Part shown: in pieces, positions 36,432 to 47,763 of the stretch
Layout: each line of letters opens with the position of its first letter
How positions within the stretch are numbered: the stretch's first letter is position 1
DNA from: Nereocystis luetkeana
Lineage: Eukaryota > Sar > Phaeophyceae > Laminariales > Laminariaceae
Direction: 5' to 3'
Length of the DNA: 64,000 nucleotides
NCBI GenBank assembly: GCA_031213475.1
Contig: JARUPZ010000002.1
Location: 12,162,951-12,226,950, forward strand
Notes under the pieces: generated by a model
Databases searched by the model: none
The model's input: the letters and a program-made list of their open reading frames with translations, nothing else
What the model was told of the DNA's origin: nothing
Translations under genes and position numbers: made by a program

Positions 36432-39400
36432 TTAGTTGTCCCTCACCGTGTTGATGCACGCCTCGTGCTCGAGGACGTTGAAGCGCACCGTCTTGGAGAG
36501 AGGCCGGCACTGTCCGATCGTGACGATGTCTCCCTCCTTCACGTTTTGCCAGCAGGGCGCGCAGTGCACCGTCATGTTCTTGTGGCGCTTCTCGAACCTT
36601 GGTTCAAGAACACACACAAAGCGCACACACCAACGAACAGAGTGGAGGGGAAAAAACAACGACAGCGAATAGAGAGGCGTTTTTTTAGGGAACGGGGCAC
36701 ATGGAGTAAAAATGTTTGGGCCTCGCAGAGGAAAGGACGGTAGTGAAACCCGTTAACACCGACCCGAACATGATGGCTTGAGAACTCATGACTCGAATCG
36801 ATCCCAATTTAAACATGAACACAAACGCCTCCCTAGACCAAAGCAAATACCACGATATACCGGTAGGGTTGTCCGAGTCGAAGGACGGACGCCCCGCACC
36901 AGGCTTTCGCCTTCCATTGCCGCTTTGTAACCCATGCCCAGCAACCAAAATAGCGACTACCGCGGTAGAATCAACCATCGAGGAAGAGCGCGCAGCAATT
37001 CGAGCATGCACCAGCGTACTTGCACGCGTGTTGTACAGCTCCTTACACGCAGCCCGGACACATTTGCCCTACGAGTAGCAAATCGGGCTCTCATTTGTGT
37101 GGCCGGTGCTGTCAATTAATCGTAGTCACTTCAAGACAACTTTCCCCCTCTAGAGTCCCAAAGAAGAGGCAAAACTTACAAGAAACCCCGCTCCACTTTG
37201 TGGGCAGCGTGACCAGTAACGAGGCGGTGGCCTGACGCATCAACATCTATTCTACGTCACCGGGAAGAGCGGACAAGATAGTGATGACGCATTCTCGGGC
37301 AGGCAGACAGGCGGTTCAACCTCACAAAAAAGGCAAAACGCAACCCGGCACCTGCTATACACTTATGTTAACAGACGGCGCGGAGCTCTTTTTACTATTT
37401 ACCCCTCCTCTAGGCGCACTTTTTTTACGGGATAATATTCATTTCTCACCGGCGGTACTTGGAGATGTAGTGCAGGTAGTCACGGCGGATGACGATAGTG
37501 TTCGTCATCTTGCCGGCGGAGATAACAAGGCCCTTTGACGACAAGAAGAAACACATACACACACAAAGAAGCACGAGAACGCGATCGCGGAGGAGGATCT
37601 GCAGGGTCACACAAAAGTTCACGCTCCCGGAACGACAACGTATGTACCGATAAAGCGTGGGAAACACCTCCGCACGAAAAAACGTACGCGAATCACTGCC
37701 ATGATGATTCAGGTTGCATCCTAAATACAGATCCGTCGAACACGGTTCATAGTATATACTTCGTATGCTGTGAGTCGTAGACAGCTCAATATGTAGTCTA
37801 CAGTAGATGGACAAATTCACAGGGGATAAAAATAATGAGCATGTCAGACAACACCATTTCGTACCGACCGCTCCCCGGCTATCCAGTCTGCCTACGCATC
37901 TGGTTGGAACGAAGGTGCAGACCGCACCAGATCATACATTCATACAGATTGTCACGTGGTAAGTGCACGTGCGATGGGGGAAAGGGGGGGGGGGGAGAGG
38001 GTTTATTTTCTCGCTATGACGAGGATGCGACCGCGAATGGTCACGTCGTCGGTGAAGGGACATCAAACTTAGCAGAGAACGGAAGAAACAACTTTGTACA
38101 CGCCTGTTTTGTTGGGGAAGAGGGGGCAGGGGATGCGGCCGCGGGTTGACACGTCGCCGGTGGAAGGGCATAACCGCAACACAACACGAACTTTTCACAT
38201 TGCGTGAGCATGCGCGGTCGGGGAGAGGGGGGGGAAGGCAGGTGTGTACTGTAAGTTTTTTCTCTCGCCTTAAGGATGCGGCCGCGGATGGACACGTCGC
38301 CGGTGAAGGGGCACTTCTTGTCGACGTAGTTGCCCTCCTTGGCGAGCTTGGGGGTCTTGAAGCCAAGGCCGACGTTCTTCACGAAACGCATGCCCTTGCC
38401 CTGCGAGGCGAGGGACACAACAGCAGAAGGGACCGCACCGCATGGCGACGGGTTTGGTAGAGCGGATGCAGGGAGTGGAAGAAGGGCATAGACAGGGGGA
38501 GACACACGTCAGCACCTGCTCCAGCCATTGAACGATTTCACAAATCATCACGCAAGGACGGAAAAATAGACACAAAATATACCAGGCACCTGGTGCCATA
38601 TTATACTATTAATATTAATAGTATTAATAACTATAATATATACCTGGTACGAGACAACGAAAATGTGAATAGAAGGTCCTTCGTGGGTGAAGAGAGGGAG
38701 GCGGACGGAGACTCTCACAAAATCCAACAAAGGCAGCCGGTGACGAAGAATGTCGACGAGGCAAGCAGCAACAGTTTCTTACAGCAGGGTTACGCAGCAG
38801 GTCGGCTCCAGTCTGCGGTACATTTTGCGGGGTGCCCTTGATTAGGCGTAGCTAGGATTCAAGTTGCTATTATATGTGGGAGGGGGTGGGGGCGGCAGCG
38901 AGGCGATAACCAGGTTGCCGGGAAGGGGAGAGGGGGTGCGAAACGAGAAACAAGAGGCTCGGACAAAAAGCACGTTGTCTTCAACCAGCCGAGGCTGATC
39001 TGAAACTCTAGTCCGTTTACTTCACTTCGTCATGGCCGAGTTTCTCCAGCACCACCCCCGGCCGAACAATACTACTTCGTCTCGTACCAAGTACACACAC
39101 AAGAAGAGCTCCTGCAATCTATATTCGCGCAGCACGAGTTGTGCTCAATCGCAGAAAGAGGAGGCCGAAAGCTTTGAAACCAGAAAGAAAGAAAGAGGGG
39201 GGCTACAGGGAGGAACTCAATGGCTCGGACACAAAGCACGTTGTCTTCAAACAGCCGGGGCTGATCTGAAACTCTAGTCCGTTTACTCTACTTCGTCATG
39301 GCCGAGTTCCTCCAACCCCACCCCGGCGCAAAAGGTATTCCCCAACGCTAAAGGGTTCCCGTGATCATGTTCGCGCAGAGAGTCGTGGTATTCCGAGCGG

Positions 39401-42400
39401 AAAGGCGGTGAGTTGTGGAGCAGCGACACCGAAAAAAAAAAAAAAACAGAGGGGGAACATGGGAAGAGGAACAAGAGGCTCGGACAAAAAGAGCGTTGTC
39501 TTCAAACAGCCGGGGCTAATCTGAAACTTTAGTCCGTATACTTTACTTTGTCATGGCCGATTTCCTTCAAGCAATCCCGTAAAACTTTGGAAAAGGTTGT
39601 GTATATTCGAGCAGCAAAAGTAAAATCAAACCATTCAAAGCAAGGCGATTGGTGGTAGGTACAGCCGAAGCCGCAAAGTTGATGGAAGTCAGGAGAGATA
39701 GATAAAGACAATGGGAGGAAGAACAAGAGGCTCGGACAAAAAGCGCGTTGTCTTCAAACAGCCGAGGCTGATCTGAAACTCTAGTCCGTTTACTTTACTT
39801 CGTCATAGCCCCCCCCCCCCCCCCTCCCCCAATATTACATAGGTTGGGTTGGCGTCGATTGGCAACGACACTGTAAAACATGCCGCTCAGCCAGACATCC
39901 AGGGTACCGTTTTTTTTGCGGTCGCCCACAGCTGGTTGTCGAGTTAGATCATTTGTGCGAGGTAAAGAACCTTTACTCCGCACAAGGGAATTGATCGTAT
40001 CACGTAGTGTTCAAGGTAAGGCACCCAAGAGGCAGTTACATAGTACTCCCATTGCTGTCTCTGGAAATGCCTACACCGAAAATTAAAATAACCCATTCAA
40101 GCTGTCATCCATATGCAAGTTCGCCTCACAAGCGGTTCTTAGTAGGATGCAGATCGCCCTTCATGCGACTCGCCAGACACCTCACGGCGCTTCGCGCTTG
40201 GTGCAAGCAATGTCTGCCTGGTCGGTGAAAACCCGACATGCTCCGTCCCGGCATTGTAGGGATGCGAGGGTCTACGACTACAGCCATGCATGAGATCGAG
40301 TACATCTCTCCTATCGAGTACCCCCCCCCCCTGTCCCCATGATATCGAGCACCCCCCCCCTCTCCCCTCGCCAACGGACTAGATCTCAAAGAAAAATGAG
40401 CCAAGGTGAGGACTTTGTCATCATCATCAAGGCGCGTTACAGATTTCGAGCAGCGCGGGGTTTTGTTGTCAAAGAGTAGGGCAGCTAAACGTGGAGCAGC
40501 GAAACGACATGCCCAGAAGAGTTAAATTAATTACCGGAAGTCAAACGGAGTACGAGTGCAACCATGAGGCTCAGAGAGAAAGCATGATAAAACACAGAAA
40601 AACAACCGAGACTGATAGTCCGTTCATTTTGCTCGTCATGGCCCGAGTCTCTCCAATACCCCCCAGAGCTTATACGAAAAAAAGTTCTTAAAGGGAGCGA
40701 CTGACTGGATGTGCAGAACCCAGGAGCGTTGAAGGTAAACGTTGTCGGCAAGAGAGCAATCGAAATGACGGAGGGGTAGGGGGGGGGGGGGGCGGGGGCG
40801 GGAGGAACAATAATAGAGGCTCGGACAAGAAGCACGTTGTCTTCAAACAGCCGGGGCTGGTCTGAAACTCTAGTCCGTTTACTTTACTTCGTCATCGCCA
40901 CGTTCCTGACCCAGCGCACCCACACCCTCAGCACAACAACGCCTGGCGCTCTCTTCCTTTTGTGCCAGCAGGAGAAGGGGGCTGTGCGTTACACGGTCGC
41001 GATCCCTCTATACGTTGTGCCGCTAGCCCGCTCTATTATACAGTAGTGTGCTGTGAACTCGCTTTGGCAAAGATGAAACACTCCATTTGGGCGTCAGTCG
41101 GAGTAGTGCCGGCTGCCGCTATCTATATCACTAGTGCCGGTATTGTTGGCTGGCGCATACTGTACCGGCACTATACAGGGACAACAACGGTGAAAGAACA
41201 ACCCTTTGTGCGCCACCAGAAGGGGTTGCGTCGTACAAACAGCGAGACTCGTGCAGATGGAGCAGCGGGATGAGTACTATTAGTATATATCCTAAGGTGA
41301 CATTTCTGTGTCTCTACAGTCTGTGACCATATACTTTGGTGCCTGTCCAGGACACATAATCAGGACGGACACTGGGTGTACCCGACGCAGTTGTGTTCAT
41401 TGGCCAAGAAGATACAAACATCGCCGGGAGGAGGAACGGGGACATAACCCAACAGGGGAGGCTCGGACACAAAGCGCGTTGTCTTCAAACAGCCGAGGCT
41501 GATCTGAAACTCTAGTCCGTTTACTTTACTTCGTCACAGCCGAATTCCCTTCATACTTCCCTCGGTCGAGTCTACATGGCGCGCTAAACTGAGCCGTGCA
41601 GGAGGTTTATATTTTTCAGAGCAGGGCGGCCGCGGGATGAGCAGCGAAACGAAAACAACTGAAGCAGCGATTTCAAGGATGTCGTTAACAAAAGCAGGAA
41701 AGGGTAACAAAGGGCTCGGGCGAAAAGCACGTTGTCTTCAAACAGCCGAGACTGATCTGAAACTCTAGTCCGTTTACTTTACTTGGTCATAGCCCCCCGT
41801 TCCCTCCCCAACGCCCAGTCGTCCGTCTGTATGCCGCTTGTTAGCCTGTCCTGTGACCAACACAGCCAGGCTTGGCACCGCGGTAACCCAGAATGTGTAT
41901 ATACCCTAATAAATACAAAAATACTCCCGTGAGGAGGTGCCATACAAATCAGCCAAGTACACTAGTGAGGCAGAAGTTGTTTCCGATTGGCATCCATCCC
42001 GACAGGAGATGGAATACGTAGCGGCGCAAGCGAAGCAAAACATTCTCCAAGTCGGGAGGGGATAGAGGAGGGGGACAAAAAGAGCTCGGACAGAAAGCAC
42101 GCTGTCTTCAAACAGCCGAGGCTGATCTGAAACTCTAGTCCGTTTACTTTACTTCGTCATTGCTTCGCCCCCCTTCCTCTCCCCTCGTAGCGCCCGGCAA
42201 TTTCTTGTCGGTGGAATTTGGTTATTTTTTTAGCATGCGAATGGGGGTATAGACCAAGGCAAGGCAAAACAAGGCGAGAAGGATGTGTACCCGGGGGTGA
42301 CGGAGAGGAGGAACAAGAGGCTCGGGACAAAGGGCACGTTGTCTTCAACCAGCCGAGGCTAATCTGAAGCTACTTCACTGTGTCAGCGCCACGTCCGTTC

Positions 42401-45400
42401 CTTCCCACAAACTACATTGGATCCTATACCAGTACGAGAGTTTACTCGTTCGACCCTGCCATAATACGCGAGTACGAGCCCACAAAGACTTCGAGCCTAC
42501 CGACGCTTCCTCGTGTCATTTCTGGCAAGCGCTACACGGCTCCACATGCACATGTCGTGCTGCCTCACGTTTTCTTACCAGGTAGCAGTGACATGTCACA
42601 CGGGGTGAAGTATACCAAATAGGCGCTTCAAAGAGACACGGAGCACCTCACAAGGACTCTCAAGACAAACTGTTACGGTTCCAACACCCTACAGGAGGCT
42701 GGTAAGCCACGCAAGTACTCAACAGTAGGGCGTGTTTTTCGATTGCCATCGGCGATGCGCGTTTGCTCTCTGCCCGTCCCAACAAAACGAGAAAAAGGCC
42801 ACAAAGCTGTACCAGGTATTTGTCATCGCAGTTAGTGCCGTAATCGCAGATATGATATCCCCACTCTAACCCGACATTCGCCAAATAAACAGCGGTAAGT
42901 TGCGTTATTTTATTTTTTTCTGTAAAGATGGAGTTGAAAAAAAAAAAGTCAATTACGTACGAACTTACAGCCAGCACTACAAGACTTGTGCGAGACAGCA
43001 GATTGCGACGTAGGGCTCGGACAGCCAAGGGTGTATCTTCAGGCAGCTTTAACTGATCTCAGAAACTCTAGTCCGTTATATTTCGTCACCGCCCAGGCGA
43101 TCTCTTCTTTGCCACCGCGGCAATTCTTTGCCTTATCTACGAGTACATGGTTTTTACCTACGAGTGCACTTGCAGCGCATACCACATCTATATACCTGGT
43201 ACAGATCTACCTGTATGATCAGGTACAGATAGTGCCATGTCATATCTTAGGAGTACGAGCATGCACTCCGCACATGTGGTTGATCACACGTGGGATGCAT
43301 ATCTGAATGTGTGTACGAAACATATTACACTATACGATCGTGCGTGTATTTGTATTCTATGTTTCAGCGACAGGAAAGGGAGAGTCTGGACTCGGACAGC
43401 CAAGGGTTGAATCTTCAAAACAGCTTGCGCTGATCAGAGACTCCACAAGTCCATTCCAGTTTTTCGTCACCGTCAAGACTCGTCCCATCTCATCCCATCC
43501 GATCACCGCGCTGCGGATGCGTTGGTGCTTTACTTAATCAAGACTATACTTCGTACATACATGTTGTATGAAACAAGCGCCTCCAACCCCGCCCGGAAGC
43601 GCCAGAGAACGTAACCAACCGTCACGTGAAAAAAAACGTTCAAACCATAACTCCATCCGTGCGAGGCGTTCTTGGGGGAAACTGAATCGCGTGACGTACT
43701 CCTCGTAAGTATATCGTACGAGGTATCATATTACAGCACTTGTGGTGTATCTGGTAAATCGTAAGGGATTATATACGAAATTGCAGGTATAGGTTTCCAC
43801 GGCCGGAACTGATTATTACGGGAAAAGAGACATTTGTCGGGGAAACAATATTAGTGGCGTACCAGTAAATACTGACCTGCGGGTTTGCCAAAGCCTGCGA
43901 CGGCGTGATGAAGAACGGGGCCACGTCAAAGCTGGGCAACTGTTAAGCGACGTCTCTCTCTATAGATAACGTCATGAACAAGTCACACCAGCGGAGGATC
44001 AGCCGGTGCGATCGTCACCCGCCCCATAGAAACGAGGAGCACGTCCCTCCCCCCCCCCCTTCTTCACCCTGTCCTCTCTACACAGAGCTGAGCCGACTTA
44101 CTACAAATAAGTCGTCAATTAGTGATTAGTTGGCCAGGCAATAAAGTTAGCTGCGTATATATAATAGTGGCATAATTACTTGTGGAGTCCTGCGTCTTTC
44201 AGCATTCGACTGGCGTATTTTCGGCTCAACGTGTGTTGTATTACACCACATCATCAATCGTGCTCAAAGTTACTTTGTAGTTGGCTTGCTTCGCCACCCA
44301 GACTCACACCCCATCTCCCGAGCTTCACCAGAGTATTGCCACTCTGTTATACCCCTTCTCACACAACAACCCTGCACTTCGGCAGTGCGAACGAATGCCA
44401 AGTTCATGCTCAGCCCCAGGAACTGTTCAACGCACTGCAGGACACAGGACTCGTCACTATCGACACGCATTCCCCATCCGAACCTCGGACGAGGAGCGCC
44501 TTGCTTCCTATAAATCGATTGCGGTGGGTGCGTCGACAAATTTACACACACAAATTTATACCAGGGGAGAGTCTGGACTCGGACAGCCAAGGGTTGAATC
44601 TTCACGACAGCTTGCGCTGGTCAAGAGACTCCTATGAGTCCATTCCAGTTTTTCGTCACCGTCAAGACCCCCTCCCATCCCATCACGGCGCTGGTCATGC
44701 GTTGGCGCCGCCATCATACACACGATATACGACAACACGTCAACGCACAATACGTATCATGCAAGAGGCCGAGGGAACGTTTGGTACTGTACTCTCGTAC
44801 TGCTCTCGCTGCTGTGTATGTACCGGCGATGCACACTATACTGCGATGATTATCCTCGTCGCTAGGTAGGGGAAGCGCTTGCAGCGGGGACACCTACGGT
44901 ACATTTACATACTCCGTTCCCCTCGCTGCCTCGGCAAGGAATGCTGCGAGGCATGCCCTATCAGGCAAATAGCGAGTGGGGTGGGTCTTTCTGGCGGGTG
45001 TAAGGCCGGACTCACCCTCAAGGAGTGATACCTTCTTGCTGCTGCCTGTGGCCGCGAGGCTCAGGCGGCAGTAGAGTTGGGTCGTACGTGGTGCGTCAGG
45101 CACGGAGACCTACGATTCGCGCGTCTTTTTTAGGCAGCTGCGGCAGAGCAGCAATGCTCAATCGGGGTGTCCGTGCGCGGAGGCAGGCGCCACCACAGGC
45201 CACACTACGCCACAGTCTATTGCGCCGGTAGGAGGCTGGATTCGACGACGAGGGAGGAGGGAGACTGAGCGTCGACGTGCGGGGAAGAGACGGATTGACC
45301 TCCCCCTGCGCGAGAATTTTTACTTTCCAGATCAGAACCGCAAGTGCGAGGAGCATTTTGTTTTTCAGGATGACGGAGAAAGGGAATCGACTGGAAGGGA

Positions 45401-47763
45401 ATGGCAACGAGTGCACGCGCAGAGGAGCGGGTGGATTGGGCAAAGGCGATGACGCGGCCATGAAGAGCGGCAGGAAGACGGTGCACGGAGACCCATGATC
45501 TGCGCGCACACTATCATCACGACAGAAGCAGTCATAGTTTGTTTTTTCCTGGTACAAGGTATTGTTTTTCACGAGGCAGAAAAGTATCTACCGGTACTTG
45601 TTATTAACGTCGTCACTGGTCTTTGTAGTTTCACGAGTTGTATACCCTTCATGGGGAATAACCTACGCAATTATCAGGGGCGTGGTATCATAACTGTGCT
45701 GCACCTTTTTGTGTCAGACAGTCCAGGAATAGATGGCGATCGTTGATATTCGTGTGGTAGTAAGGTTCGATTGCTCCTTTTTTCACTGCATATCCGCGAG
45801 TCTTCACTCTGACAGCACTCCAGATAGCAGGCAGGTGTGTTCCTCTTTCGTTTTCACGACTACCGTGCGTTTCGTACGGTGCAGGCAGCACTTCAGACAG
45901 CATCCGCTGTAGTCAGCAGCCACGAGTTGGTTAGTGGTGGGAACGGGGGTACTCTATGTTATAGTTGAGAGGATATACCCGCGGCCATGTTAGTTCAGTT
46001 TGCACATTGGTTTTAGCTCGTGTGCGCTTTCTTCGTCTCGTGTATTTTGAGGCAGCCGAATTTTCGTTTTTTTTTCGTTTTTCGGATCTTCCTATTAATA
46101 GGGCTCCAGGACCTTTGTGTGACCACGGACTCCTTCGTCAGGAAGTTAATGTGAGAACAACAACAACAACAACAACAATACTCCCTGTTTTCGGGGAGGT
46201 GCTGTATTCCTACTTGAGTACAAAGTACAAAGACTTACCTACAGGTGTGCCTTTTTTCTGTTTACGTACGTACTGCAATCAAGATATGATTAGGTTCGCC
46301 TCGGTTTGTGTAACATGCTCATCCTGACGTACATCGCCTCGCTCCTCAACGTTGGGAGTCCAGCCTACACCTAACGATCAACACTAGCACTTTCACGAAG
46401 CAAAAGTAGCAGTATTCGGACGACAAGGTATTAGTACTGCAGCAGTAACGGAGGCGTTTTTACTTCAATGGTAAGTACCAGATATCGATTATCGTACAAC
46501 ATACCTTGGCGACCTTCTTGCCGAGCACACGCTTCGCTCCCACGAAGACGGCATCCTGCTTCTGGTACGCCTTCTCGTGCTGTTATATCGGCAAAAGTAC
46601 AAAAATACAAAGAGCGAAAAACAAAGACAACGGCAAAGGCAGCCAAGATTAGTGAAAAGTGCCAGGTGCCAGGTACATGACAGTTTATGTCGTGTCAACA
46701 GACGTGAAAGGGGGGAAGTGCGAGGAGCAGGAAGTAATCGATCGAGGTTCTTCATCACCCAACACAGGCGGTTGTCAGCTTGACGTCGCTTCTTGTACCA
46801 GGTATACATGACCGTACGCAGCACAGCTGCCGCGTTTTCATTGCGGGCAGAGGCAGCATGATTTGGTTGGGTTCCGTCAAATGGAACATCAGCGCACAAA
46901 GCTCTCCCTCTGTATCCCTTACTCTGTAGCAGGGGCTAAACTCACTATCGGAGCTTCGGAACGTGTCCCTAGAGATACGAACGAGTACTACGGTACATGA
47001 TGCTGATCTTCCTGGTGTCTGACAGTAGATGCAAGTATTTTGTGCGGTACTACGCTCACAGCAAGTACAACCCATTTGTGTGATGCTGTCTACTTCATAT
47101 ACCCGCCATGGAAGCAGCAAGAAGCAACATCAGCCGTCGACGCGAAGACTTGCTCGAGATAACGGCGGTATAAATACCATACACGCGAGGTACTTTACTC
47201 CTGGAGGAGAGAGTTTACTGCCGTTGATCGACCAGAATACAACAGTGACCGCCGTGATCGAATCGGAGATGAACTATCGTGCGCTGGCTTCCTGTCACCC
47301 CTCTGCTTTCAGGGCAACCACCAAGTCTACACCAACATCCAACATCCTGTCTCATCACCTGCGGGATTCGCGAAGAGCTGGGAGGCGTGGGGCTATGGAT
47401 ATATACCAGGTACAAGGTACAAGGTGCGCCGTTTTGACTCCCGAACACCCAGAGAAACAACCCCAAAAAACGCTCTGGTGCTTCGGTTTCCAAGAAACGT
47501 GCAAAAAGGCTTCGCACGTTTGAATCGTATCCCTCACGCCACCGCCAAAGCGGAATCTCAGCGGGGTTCATTCACCACGTCGTCAAGCCTGCGACGTGTA
47601 CGGGATTGGTGTCTTGCAATCTAGGCACCGCTCTCCGGCTACATGTGTAGCGTCCATCCATTCCCTCTCCAAACACCATGCCACTACGTACCAACACCCC
47701 ACCCCTACTCCCAAGTAGTGATGGTCACACCTGTTCAGCCTCCCGGTAGTCCTGGAGTCCCAT
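36432..47763 (-). CDS. RPS11: Cytosolic 40S ribosomal protein uS17 (RPS11), five exons
   Basis: Exons 47763-47731, 46579-46505, 38400-38269, 37532-37450 and 36597-36432, giving 162 residues (human RPS11 has 158). Recognised blocks in order: [102 protein letters not shown], then a short family-divergent tail. It binds 18S rRNA in the small subunit body. All junctions are in phase. Introns 1, 2 and 4 are GT-AG; intron 3 uses AAG|GCGAGA, a GC donor, since no GT is available. Intron 2 is 8.1 kb and carries 13 snoRNA-like units on the same strand, so the gene probably serves as a snoRNA host. Exon 1 (11 codons, [11 protein letters not shown]) is short but has a clean donor and fits the phase. The gene is divergent from the DNA glycosylase gene. 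Confidence 0.95.
38021..38066 (-). pseudogene. Decayed duplicate of the end of RPS11 exon 3 (distal copy)
   Basis: On the minus strand it would encode [14 protein letters not shown], a near match of the exon's [14 protein letters not shown]. It sits in intron 3 about 240 bp downstream of the real exon end. Confidence 0.75.
38128..38172 (-). pseudogene. Decayed duplicate of the end of RPS11 exon 3 (proximal copy)
   Basis: On the minus strand it would encode [13 protein letters not shown]. Together with the distal copy it shows the exon-intron border was triplicated in tandem with a period of roughly 105-140 bp. The flanking pyrimidine-rich sequence is also partly shared. Confidence 0.75.
38956..39037 (-). 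ncRNA. Intronic box C/D snoRNA-like unit a
   Basis: Sense (minus) layout: stem GGC, spacer C, box C ATGACGA, guide 1 containing CGGACTAGAGT, D' CAGA, hairpin loop, C' TGAAGA, box D CCGA, stem GCC. Guide 1 is complementary to ACTCTAGTCCG of large-subunit rRNA. This is the copy nearest exon 3 of RPS11. Confidence 0.75.
39222..39303 (-). ncRNA. Intronic box C/D snoRNA-like unit b
   Basis: Same boxes as unit a and intact guide 1. It differs at a few positions outside the boxes, for example CAGCCCCGGCTG in the central hairpin. Confidence 0.75.
39477..39558 (-). ncRNA. Intronic box C/D snoRNA-like unit c (decaying)
   Basis: Box C has become ATGACAA and guide 1 has one change (CGGACTAAAGT), which breaks the rRNA match. 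Stem and box D are intact. Confidence 0.55.
39729..39810 (-). ncRNA. Intronic box C/D snoRNA-like unit d
   Basis: All boxes and guide 1 intact; stem GGC/GCC with spacer T. Its 5' end (higher coordinate) directly abuts the poly-C tract that starts repeat copy 6. Confidence 0.75.
39811..40370 (+). repeat. Poly-C-ended repeat family P, copy 6 (near full length)
   Basis: Begins in a C-rich run, then AGGTTGGGTTGGCGTCGATT. It passes through ATTTGTGCGAGGTAAAGAAC and the shared body and ends in a C tract at 40319-40332 plus a partial second terminus. It separates snoRNA-like units d and e. Confidence 0.85.
40568..40643 (-). pseudogene. snoRNA-like unit e (degenerate)
   Basis: The stem, box C ATGACGA and a box D of the canonical form CTGA are present. 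About ten bases covering D' and the end of guide 1 are missing and the 3' half is heavily changed. Confidence 0.55.
40818..40899 (-). ncRNA. Intronic box C/D snoRNA-like unit f
   Basis: Stem GGC/GCC with spacer G, box C ATGACGA, guide 1 intact, D' CAGA, C' TGAAGA, box D CCGA. Confidence 0.72.
41460..41541 (-). ncRNA. Intronic box C/D snoRNA-like unit g
   Basis: Stem GGC/GCC with spacer T, box C in the other purine form GTGACGA, guide 1 intact, box D CCGA. Confidence 0.72.
41713..41794 (-). ncRNA. Intronic box C/D snoRNA-like unit h
   Basis: Guide 1 is intact but box C reads ATGACCA, which loses the second GA and may impair function. Box D CCGA retained. Confidence 0.6.
42083..42163 (-). ncRNA. 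Intronic box C/D snoRNA-like unit i
   Basis: Guide 1 and boxes are intact. The stem is AGC/GCT instead of GGC/GCC, so both partners changed together and the outer pair is kept as A-U. Confidence 0.75.
42319..42390 (-). pseudogene. snoRNA-like unit j (truncated)
   Basis: Lacks the guide 1 segment, and box C is degenerate (CTGACACA). The 3' half with C' and box D CCGA is still recognisable. Confidence 0.55.
43014..43093 (-). ncRNA. Intronic box C/D snoRNA-like unit k, double guide
   Basis: Stem GGC/GCC, box C GTGACGA, guide 1 with CGGACTAGAGT, canonical D' CTGA, C' TGAAGA, guide 2 with CCCTTGGCTGT, box D CCGA. Guide 2 is complementary to ACAGCCAAGGG, which lies roughly 60-70 nt upstream of the guide 1 site in large-subunit rRNA. 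It is the only copy with both guides. Confidence 0.82.
43388..43474 (-). ncRNA. Intronic box C/D snoRNA-like unit l
   Basis: Stem GAC/GTC (compensatory relative to unit k), box C GTGACGA, D' CTGA, C' TGAAGA, guide 2 intact, box D CCGA. Guide 1 is replaced by GGACTTGTGGAGTCT, which no longer fits the first rRNA site. Confidence 0.75.
44575..44663 (-). ncRNA. Intronic box C/D snoRNA-like unit m
   Basis: Closest relative of unit l: stem GAC/GTC, box C GTGACGA, guide 2 and box D intact, D' altered to CTTGA, and a different first guide (GGACTCATAGGAGTC). It is the first unit transcribed in the RPS11 intron. Confidence 0.72.

Follow-up and report, generated by a model that had tools for sequence, protein, structure and literature searches.

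Thirteen related units in an intron of RPS11

The DNA analyzed here, referred to as the window, is a stretch of 64,000 nucleotides (nt) from the brown alga Nereocystis luetkeana (assembly GCA_031213475.1, contig JARUPZ010000002.1, positions 12,162,951 to 12,226,950 of the forward strand). The window carries the RPS11 (uS17) gene on its minus strand, and the second intron of this gene houses 13 related units that all lie on the RPS11 strand. We consider it very probable that these units are box C/D small nucleolar RNA (snoRNA) genes of the SnoR37/snoZ157 (SNORD52, snR78) family, and that an ancestor with two guides was copied and its tasks were split among the copies. The host gene was identified from the joined exons, which matched the Pfam family Ribosomal_S17_N with an expectation value (E) of 1.7e-31; the match to Ribosomal_S17 was partial, with 24.4 bits against a cut-off of 25.9. 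Intron 2 (46504-38401, minus strand) comprises 8104 nt, starts with GTATGT and ends with CGCAG. It is flanked by exon 2 (46505..46579) and exon 3 (38269..38400), which were delimited by eye and tested in the Pfam search of the joined exons. An AT-rich inverted repeat is located at 38598-38639, close to the 3' end of the intron. Judged by eye, the donor of exon 3 at 38268 is apparently GC and not GT, and the terminal part of exon 3 apparently recurs twice, in decayed form, within intron 3 (at 38010-38170, minus strand).

From high to low coordinates, the units are m (44576..44663), l (43389..43474), k (43014..43093), j (42319..42394), i (42083..42164), h (41713..41794), g (41460..41541), f (40818..40899), e (40568..40643), d (39729..39810), c (39477..39558), b (39222..39303) and a (38956..39037), all on the minus strand. 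A sequence-only model derived from the 13 units recovered exactly 13 places in the window (E 9.8e-28 to 9.8e-12), all on the minus strand, and no further unit at E<=10. Since this model was built from the units themselves, it demonstrates the coherence of the set and the lack of a 14th member and is no independent proof of identity. According to the initial annotation, 13 like-oriented units lie within a single intron of RPS11, on the strand of the gene; the model search bears this out. The array of 13 stands, but not all of its copies are intact, as units e (with a truncated guide) and j (without a D' guide) are decayed. We refer to the eight units a-d and f-i as the main units.

Boxes, conserved cores and predicted flanking stems

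Box C starts with UGAC in all units and reads TGACGA in ten of the 13; TGACCA in h and TGACAA in c are among the exceptions. Box D is CCGA in 12 units and CTGA in unit e. The earlier description of TGACGA and CCGA as boxes C and D is hence right for these ten and 12 units, respectively, and not for the remainder. Both boxes are close to the consensus RUGAUGA/CUGA and both are shifted from it. In the standard kink-turn (k-turn) pairing, U faces U; boxes of the type UGAC../CCGA would, as we assume, put C opposite C at this position. A terminal stem beside the boxes was found by eye in all 13 units. Twelve units align in the stem alignment (j is misaligned), and double changes occur at two of the three stem pairs. 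In total, 96.7% of the cells were paired, 3 pairs were changed on both sides and the covariation score was 0.271, and each of these three statistics was reached by none of 500 shuffles. The covariation of the stem, which had been proposed from the letters, is borne out in these terms, while the number of pair types was no better than in shuffles (177/500). Unit i has an AGC/GCT stem, and the GAC/GTC stem shared by l and m probably goes back to one inherited event.

In an anchored comparison, the stem-to-stem cores of the main units are 91.6% identical, whereas the four flanking 50-nt bins are only 47-51% identical, which equals the level of shuffled sequence. Comparing the spacers with each other by BLAST revealed one match with E 9.6e-5 (36 nt upstream of l and m) and a second, marginal one with E 0.015, and ten sets of shuffled spacers gave one match in total. 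The intron compared with itself yielded alignments of up to 671 nt at 70% identity. Because the spacers alone gave just two matches, we conclude that these long alignments are carried by the cores. Strong divergence of the spacers around a kept core, as stated in the initial annotation, was therefore confirmed. Of the 12 spacers, five measure 170-184 nt and one more measures 154 nt; such lengths would be expected if a unit of about 250 nt had been duplicated in tandem and the spacers had then diverged completely. The sequence AACGGACTAGA, part of the D' guide described below, also occurs on the plus strand at 40373-40383 in the spacer between e and d, as a remnant or by chance.

A transposable or retroposed element derived from a snoRNA that inserted repeatedly would also account for unit edges that lie near the RNA ends and for spacers that have almost nothing in common. 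Such an origin appears very unlikely to us. All 13 units have a single orientation and lie in a single intron, and the five spacers of 170-184 nt are as expected of tandem duplication. Furthermore, a search of the 465-Mb assembly (1987 contigs) with unit d returned eight matches, which are the eight main units; this search missed k, l, m, e and j and would likewise have missed diverged copies at other loci.

Constraint within the cores was assessed by counting minor letters in the main units. We found 1/136 in the D' guide with the D' box, 1/96 in the C' segment, 1/56 in box D with the stem, 3/88 between box C and the guide, 7/112 in the D'-C' loop, 9/88 in the stem with box C and 10/80 in the D guide segment. 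These counts indicate that the D' guide is held and that the second guide is drifting in the main units. The high identity of cores within one array might also result from gene conversion and not from selection on each unit. Conversion would, however, need to halt close to the 3-bp stem of each unit and yet spare the D guide, and two guide classes coexist in the array, so that we regard it as quite improbable. Somewhat more weight, if still little, can be given to the idea that the array consists mostly of pseudogenes, in which only one unit or a handful (k and perhaps d) would be functional, the others being copies that have not yet decayed. The decay of e and j, the changed box C of c and h and the main units without a D guide agree with this idea. 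Against it, cores that are 92% identical between flanks and spacers at the shuffled level imply that the copies are old and that their cores were held, and the D' guide and the D guide segment differ in their minor letters (1/136 versus 10/80).

Purines make up 67% of the 30-nt upstream flanks of the units and 24% of the 30-nt downstream flanks, compared to 48% in the intron. Flanks of 15 nt from the same unit, with the terminal stem excluded, pair at -11.6 kcal/mol, compared to -8.5 kcal/mol for swapped flanks (0/20000 permutations). With longer flanks, p was 0.0011 at 20 nt, 0.004 at 25 nt, 0.008 at 30 nt and 0.055 at 40 nt; when unit l was omitted, the values were 0 at 15 nt, 0.002 at 20 nt, 0.010 at 25 nt, 0.016 at 30 nt and 0.081 at 40 nt. 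The external-stem signal thus fades with flank length. Unit b has a long external stem. External stems joining the ends are known for intronic C/D snoRNAs, and release of many RNAs out of one intron would require either internal cutting or such stems.

Probable family membership and predicted ribosomal RNA targets

Using lax filters, the Rfam family RF00333 (snoZ157/R69/R10, a plant box C/D snoRNA) matched 11 of the 13 units at the right place and on the right strand, and the two units missed are the decayed e and j. The E-values extend from 3.8e-8 (l) over 8.5e-7 (k), 6e-5 (m), 1.9e-4 (d), 0.0014 (f), 0.0049 (g), 0.011 (i), 0.049 (h) and 0.17 (c and a) to 0.34 (b); the matches of c, a and b would not stand alone. 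In four of the alignments, box C, the first guide, D', the hairpin, C', the second guide and box D follow each other in order. The plant family has the same order, with an GGACUAGAGUUU guide before D' and an ACCCUUGGCUGU guide before box D. It differs in its consensus UGAUGA/CUGA, where the array has UGACGA/CCGA; in addition, the D guide is missing in ten of the 13 array units and all array scores stay below the gathering score. We infer homology to SnoR37/snoZ157 from the E-values together with the shared guides, and not from the curated cut-off. Two other C/D families that the lax scan placed on unit k (E 0.73 and 0.31) were taken as chance. A hammerhead ribozyme and a U4-like k-turn were weighed by eye and dropped, the Rfam scans being the only tool basis for this.

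Guides were read directly 5' of box D or D', and both targets were placed by the +5 rule. Eight of the 13 units (a, b, d, f-i and k) carry an exact D' guide CGGACTAGAGT, and c differs from it by one mismatch. Units e, j, l and m have lost this guide; in l and m an insertion interrupts it, and the predicted fold of m shows the insertion as a hairpin. An exact D guide CCCTTGGCTGT is present in three units (k, l and m). Consequently, only the SnoR37-like unit k combines both exact guides on one RNA, and l, m and seven main units have one exact guide each. The D' guide fits the large subunit (LSU) ribosomal RNA (rRNA) at the site known as Um2422 in Arabidopsis, Um3925 in human and Um2421 in yeast, and the D guide fits it at Arabidopsis Cm2366 / human Cm3869. 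The bases predicted to be targeted are thus a U, that of (G/U)ACU, and a C, that of ACAGC, and we therefore speak of a U guide and a C guide.

Watson-Crick matches of 11 nt were found between eight of the 13 units and the U site of contig L001, and between three of the 13 and the C site of contig L013. The complement of the D guide, ACAGCCAAGGG, is present in all nine contigs (L010-L018) of a pattern search containing most of it; eight of the nine are LSU-like by their flanking letters, and L016 was recognized as LSU_rRNA_eukarya by Rfam. The exact complement of the D' guide, ACTCTAGTCCG, occurs in L001, which was selected by a pattern containing it. The C and U targets are 56 nt apart in L010, L011, L013, L015 and L016 and 57 nt apart in L018. 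Mapped pairs likewise lie 56 apart in Arabidopsis (Cm2366/Um2422), human (Cm3869/Um3925) and O. tauri (Cm2208/Um2264). When the U was set at Arabidopsis 2422, all ten sites from 2322 to 2422 had the right base in all five LSUs, while the 12 other registers tested gave the right base at no more than six of the ten Arabidopsis sites. For the 14 sites from 2257 on, the right base was found in 12, 10, 13, 14 and 13 in the five LSUs. In shuffled versions of unit k, an 11-nt match to either 40-nt target appeared in 4/2000, with box adjacency not required. L001, L010-L016 and L018 are eukaryotic LSU pieces in records labelled as viral or bacterial (L016 by Rfam, the others by eye), and these contigs are apparently mis-binned or chimeric.

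A scan of the L016 rRNA, which scored neither the D' guide of k nor any guide of j, was used to look at the remaining guides. The D' guides of a, b, d and f-i reached 9 nt, including one G-U, at the expected U site; these matches are short because L016 reads ACTCTAGTTTG there. The D' guide of c matched another place. Among the D guides of the main units, the best match was 11 nt with one G-U (h); at this position, the guide of a matched over 9 nt, also with one G-U. We took this as chance, and a weak second target is possible. The D guides of b and g reached 9 nt at other places, and those of c, d, f and i had no target in the L016 rRNA. Shuffled guides attained a score of 11 in 1/400 and 6/400. 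A 10-nt match with one G-U of the D' region of unit m was likewise taken as chance.

Several observations weigh against the assignment. The default Rfam scan returned nothing, and with lax filters the best RF00333 score was 48.1 bits, so that none of the 13 units reaches the gathering score of 55. Box D departs from CUGA in reading CCGA, and the k-turn core is not clearly visible when single units are folded by prediction. The targets were read on the LSU of other eukaryotes and not on that of the alga itself, for which a search with one DNA query gave no match. Since L001 was chosen by the U-site pattern and L010-L018 by the C-site pattern, the matches at these sites are selected ones. In contigs that were not selected for it, the U site reads ACTCTAGTCTG with one G-U in L013 and L018, ACTCTAGTTTG with two G-U pairs in L015 and L016 and ACTCTAGTCAG with a mismatch in L011, and L010 diverges.

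The region of the CCGA box D is complementary to the D' guide (CGGAC/GTCCG), and the units might instead encode a different structured RNA that is built on this pairing between guide and box D region. By eye, the letters allow the pairing in eight of the 13 units, and it was present in three of the 13 predicted folds (b, g and i). Full pairing is not possible in e, h and j, and the similarity to RF00333 together with the two rRNA targets accounts for the same letters; we judge this explanation extremely improbable. Identity as box C/D snoRNAs is supported by the likeness to RF00333, by the guides that fit, on the LSU of other eukaryotes, two 2'-O-methylation sites mapped by experiment, and by a D' guide that is held against a drifting D guide. 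The kind of locus, a C/D snoRNA array, was thus very probably read correctly in the initial annotation, to which we add the targets, the family, the two-guide unit k and the decay of e and j.

Proposed division of the guides and comparison with known systems

Similarity to RF00333, guide complementarity, target register, the pattern of constraint and the pairing of the flanks are computed results; transcription, excision, methylation and the order of events we infer from them. The units would be carried in the intron of the RPS11 pre-mRNA, and each would be released around its k-turn core, probably with help of the unit-specific flanking stems. Through the D' guide, fibrillarin would then be brought to the LSU uridine that corresponds to Arabidopsis U2422, and in k, l and m the D guide would bring it to the cytidine that corresponds to C2366. 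A k-like unit with two guides may have been duplicated in tandem, after which l and m would have retained the C guide and a-d and f-i the U guide (with one mismatch in c), while e and j decayed. A two-guide ancestor with later division of duties is the economical reading, and its direction is likewise a reading of the letters.

In Arabidopsis, SnoR37 is assigned to both 25S C2366 and U2422, according to PMC8053127. This is one snoRNA for both sites, like unit k, whereas the array has both guides in k only and consists of 13 related units in a single RPS11 intron. In the passages compared, human SNORD52, yeast snR78, Neurospora CD5 and GtNM-R6 of the Guillardia nucleomorph are assigned or predicted to guide the same U, and human SNORD53 is assigned or predicted to guide the same C; these passages on SNORD52/53, snR78, CD5 and GtNM-R6 describe no array of SnoR37-family units. 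Unlike the array, CD5 combines the U guide with another site, Am856. A split of a double guide is one of two possibilities offered for fungal CD5/snR72/snR78 in PMC2780460. Intronic clusters of rice and Drosophila are mentioned as having several snoRNAs per intron, as here, and the intron of Plasmodium S27a is described with two snoRNAs, compared to 13 in RPS11 intron 2. PMC4513859 reports that snoRNA loci of Ectocarpus were predicted with two programs. The comparison literature comprised PMC11542601, PMC6461891, PMC8053127, PMC2780460, PMC8817022, PMC9941101, PMC8393311, PMC2656528 and PMC4513859. No title among the matches listed concerned such an array or brown-algal snoRNA genes, in a search with most subscription journals outside its coverage.

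Four U14-like genes were detected in the genome, all below the Rfam cut-off. Since they carry CTGA as box D, CCGA is not a general rule in this genome. Three of them lie in tandem within 1.3 kb (L023:5090-6365, contig 23; SNORD14-like), their 125-nt copies being 91% and 98% identical to the first. They would form a second snoRNA array of this genome, so that RPS11 is not the only locus with snoRNA copies in tandem. The fourth is a single gene located between exons of an SPB1 homologue (L024:4881-4993, contig 11), with FtsJ pieces upstream and Spb1 DUF3381 downstream; as read from the sequence, a putative rRNA methyltransferase gene is here the host of a guide RNA. Two-copy repeats near the U14 genes (L023:6587-7308 and L024:5900-6698; 55 nt at 80% and 133 nt at 92%) may be other small RNA genes. 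L024:531-858 (minus strand) matched Rfam MIR5048 with 77 bits and E 1.6e-15, below the gathering score of 160. In the window itself, a copine-like reading frame matches proteins of Ectocarpus (79% identity, 25% of the query) and Scytosiphon (77%); the further matches listed among the top five are from Ascophyllum (71%) and Discosporangium (54%), together with one unnamed protein.

Many tandem copies of one C/D family, as in the array, are known from mammalian SNORD115/116. Unlike the array, these lie singly in the introns of a long non-coding host and are mostly without rRNA targets. The snoRNA family of the array is itself known and ancient, and what is new is its arrangement and not its kind; the copy number in one intron, the partition of the guides and the shifted boxes look unusual. 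A more far-reaching interpretation, towards which we would not lean but which deserves to be kept in mind, is that one intron holds every stage of the division of labour (k as undivided, l and m with the C guide only, a, b, d and f-i with the U guide only, c as fading, e and j as dead), that the k-turns of the array changed from U-U to C-C in a coordinated manner, and that copy number sets the dose of one of the two rRNA methylations more than that of the other.

For the alga, the guides predict methylation of the LSU rRNA at the U of GACUCUAG and at the C of ACAGCC, 56 nt apart. The locus would allow a test of how many snoRNAs can be released from one intron and whether flanking stems are needed, and of whether 15.5K is still recruited by a C-C k-turn. 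It would also allow a test of how a snoRNA with two guides gives rise to paralogues with one guide each.

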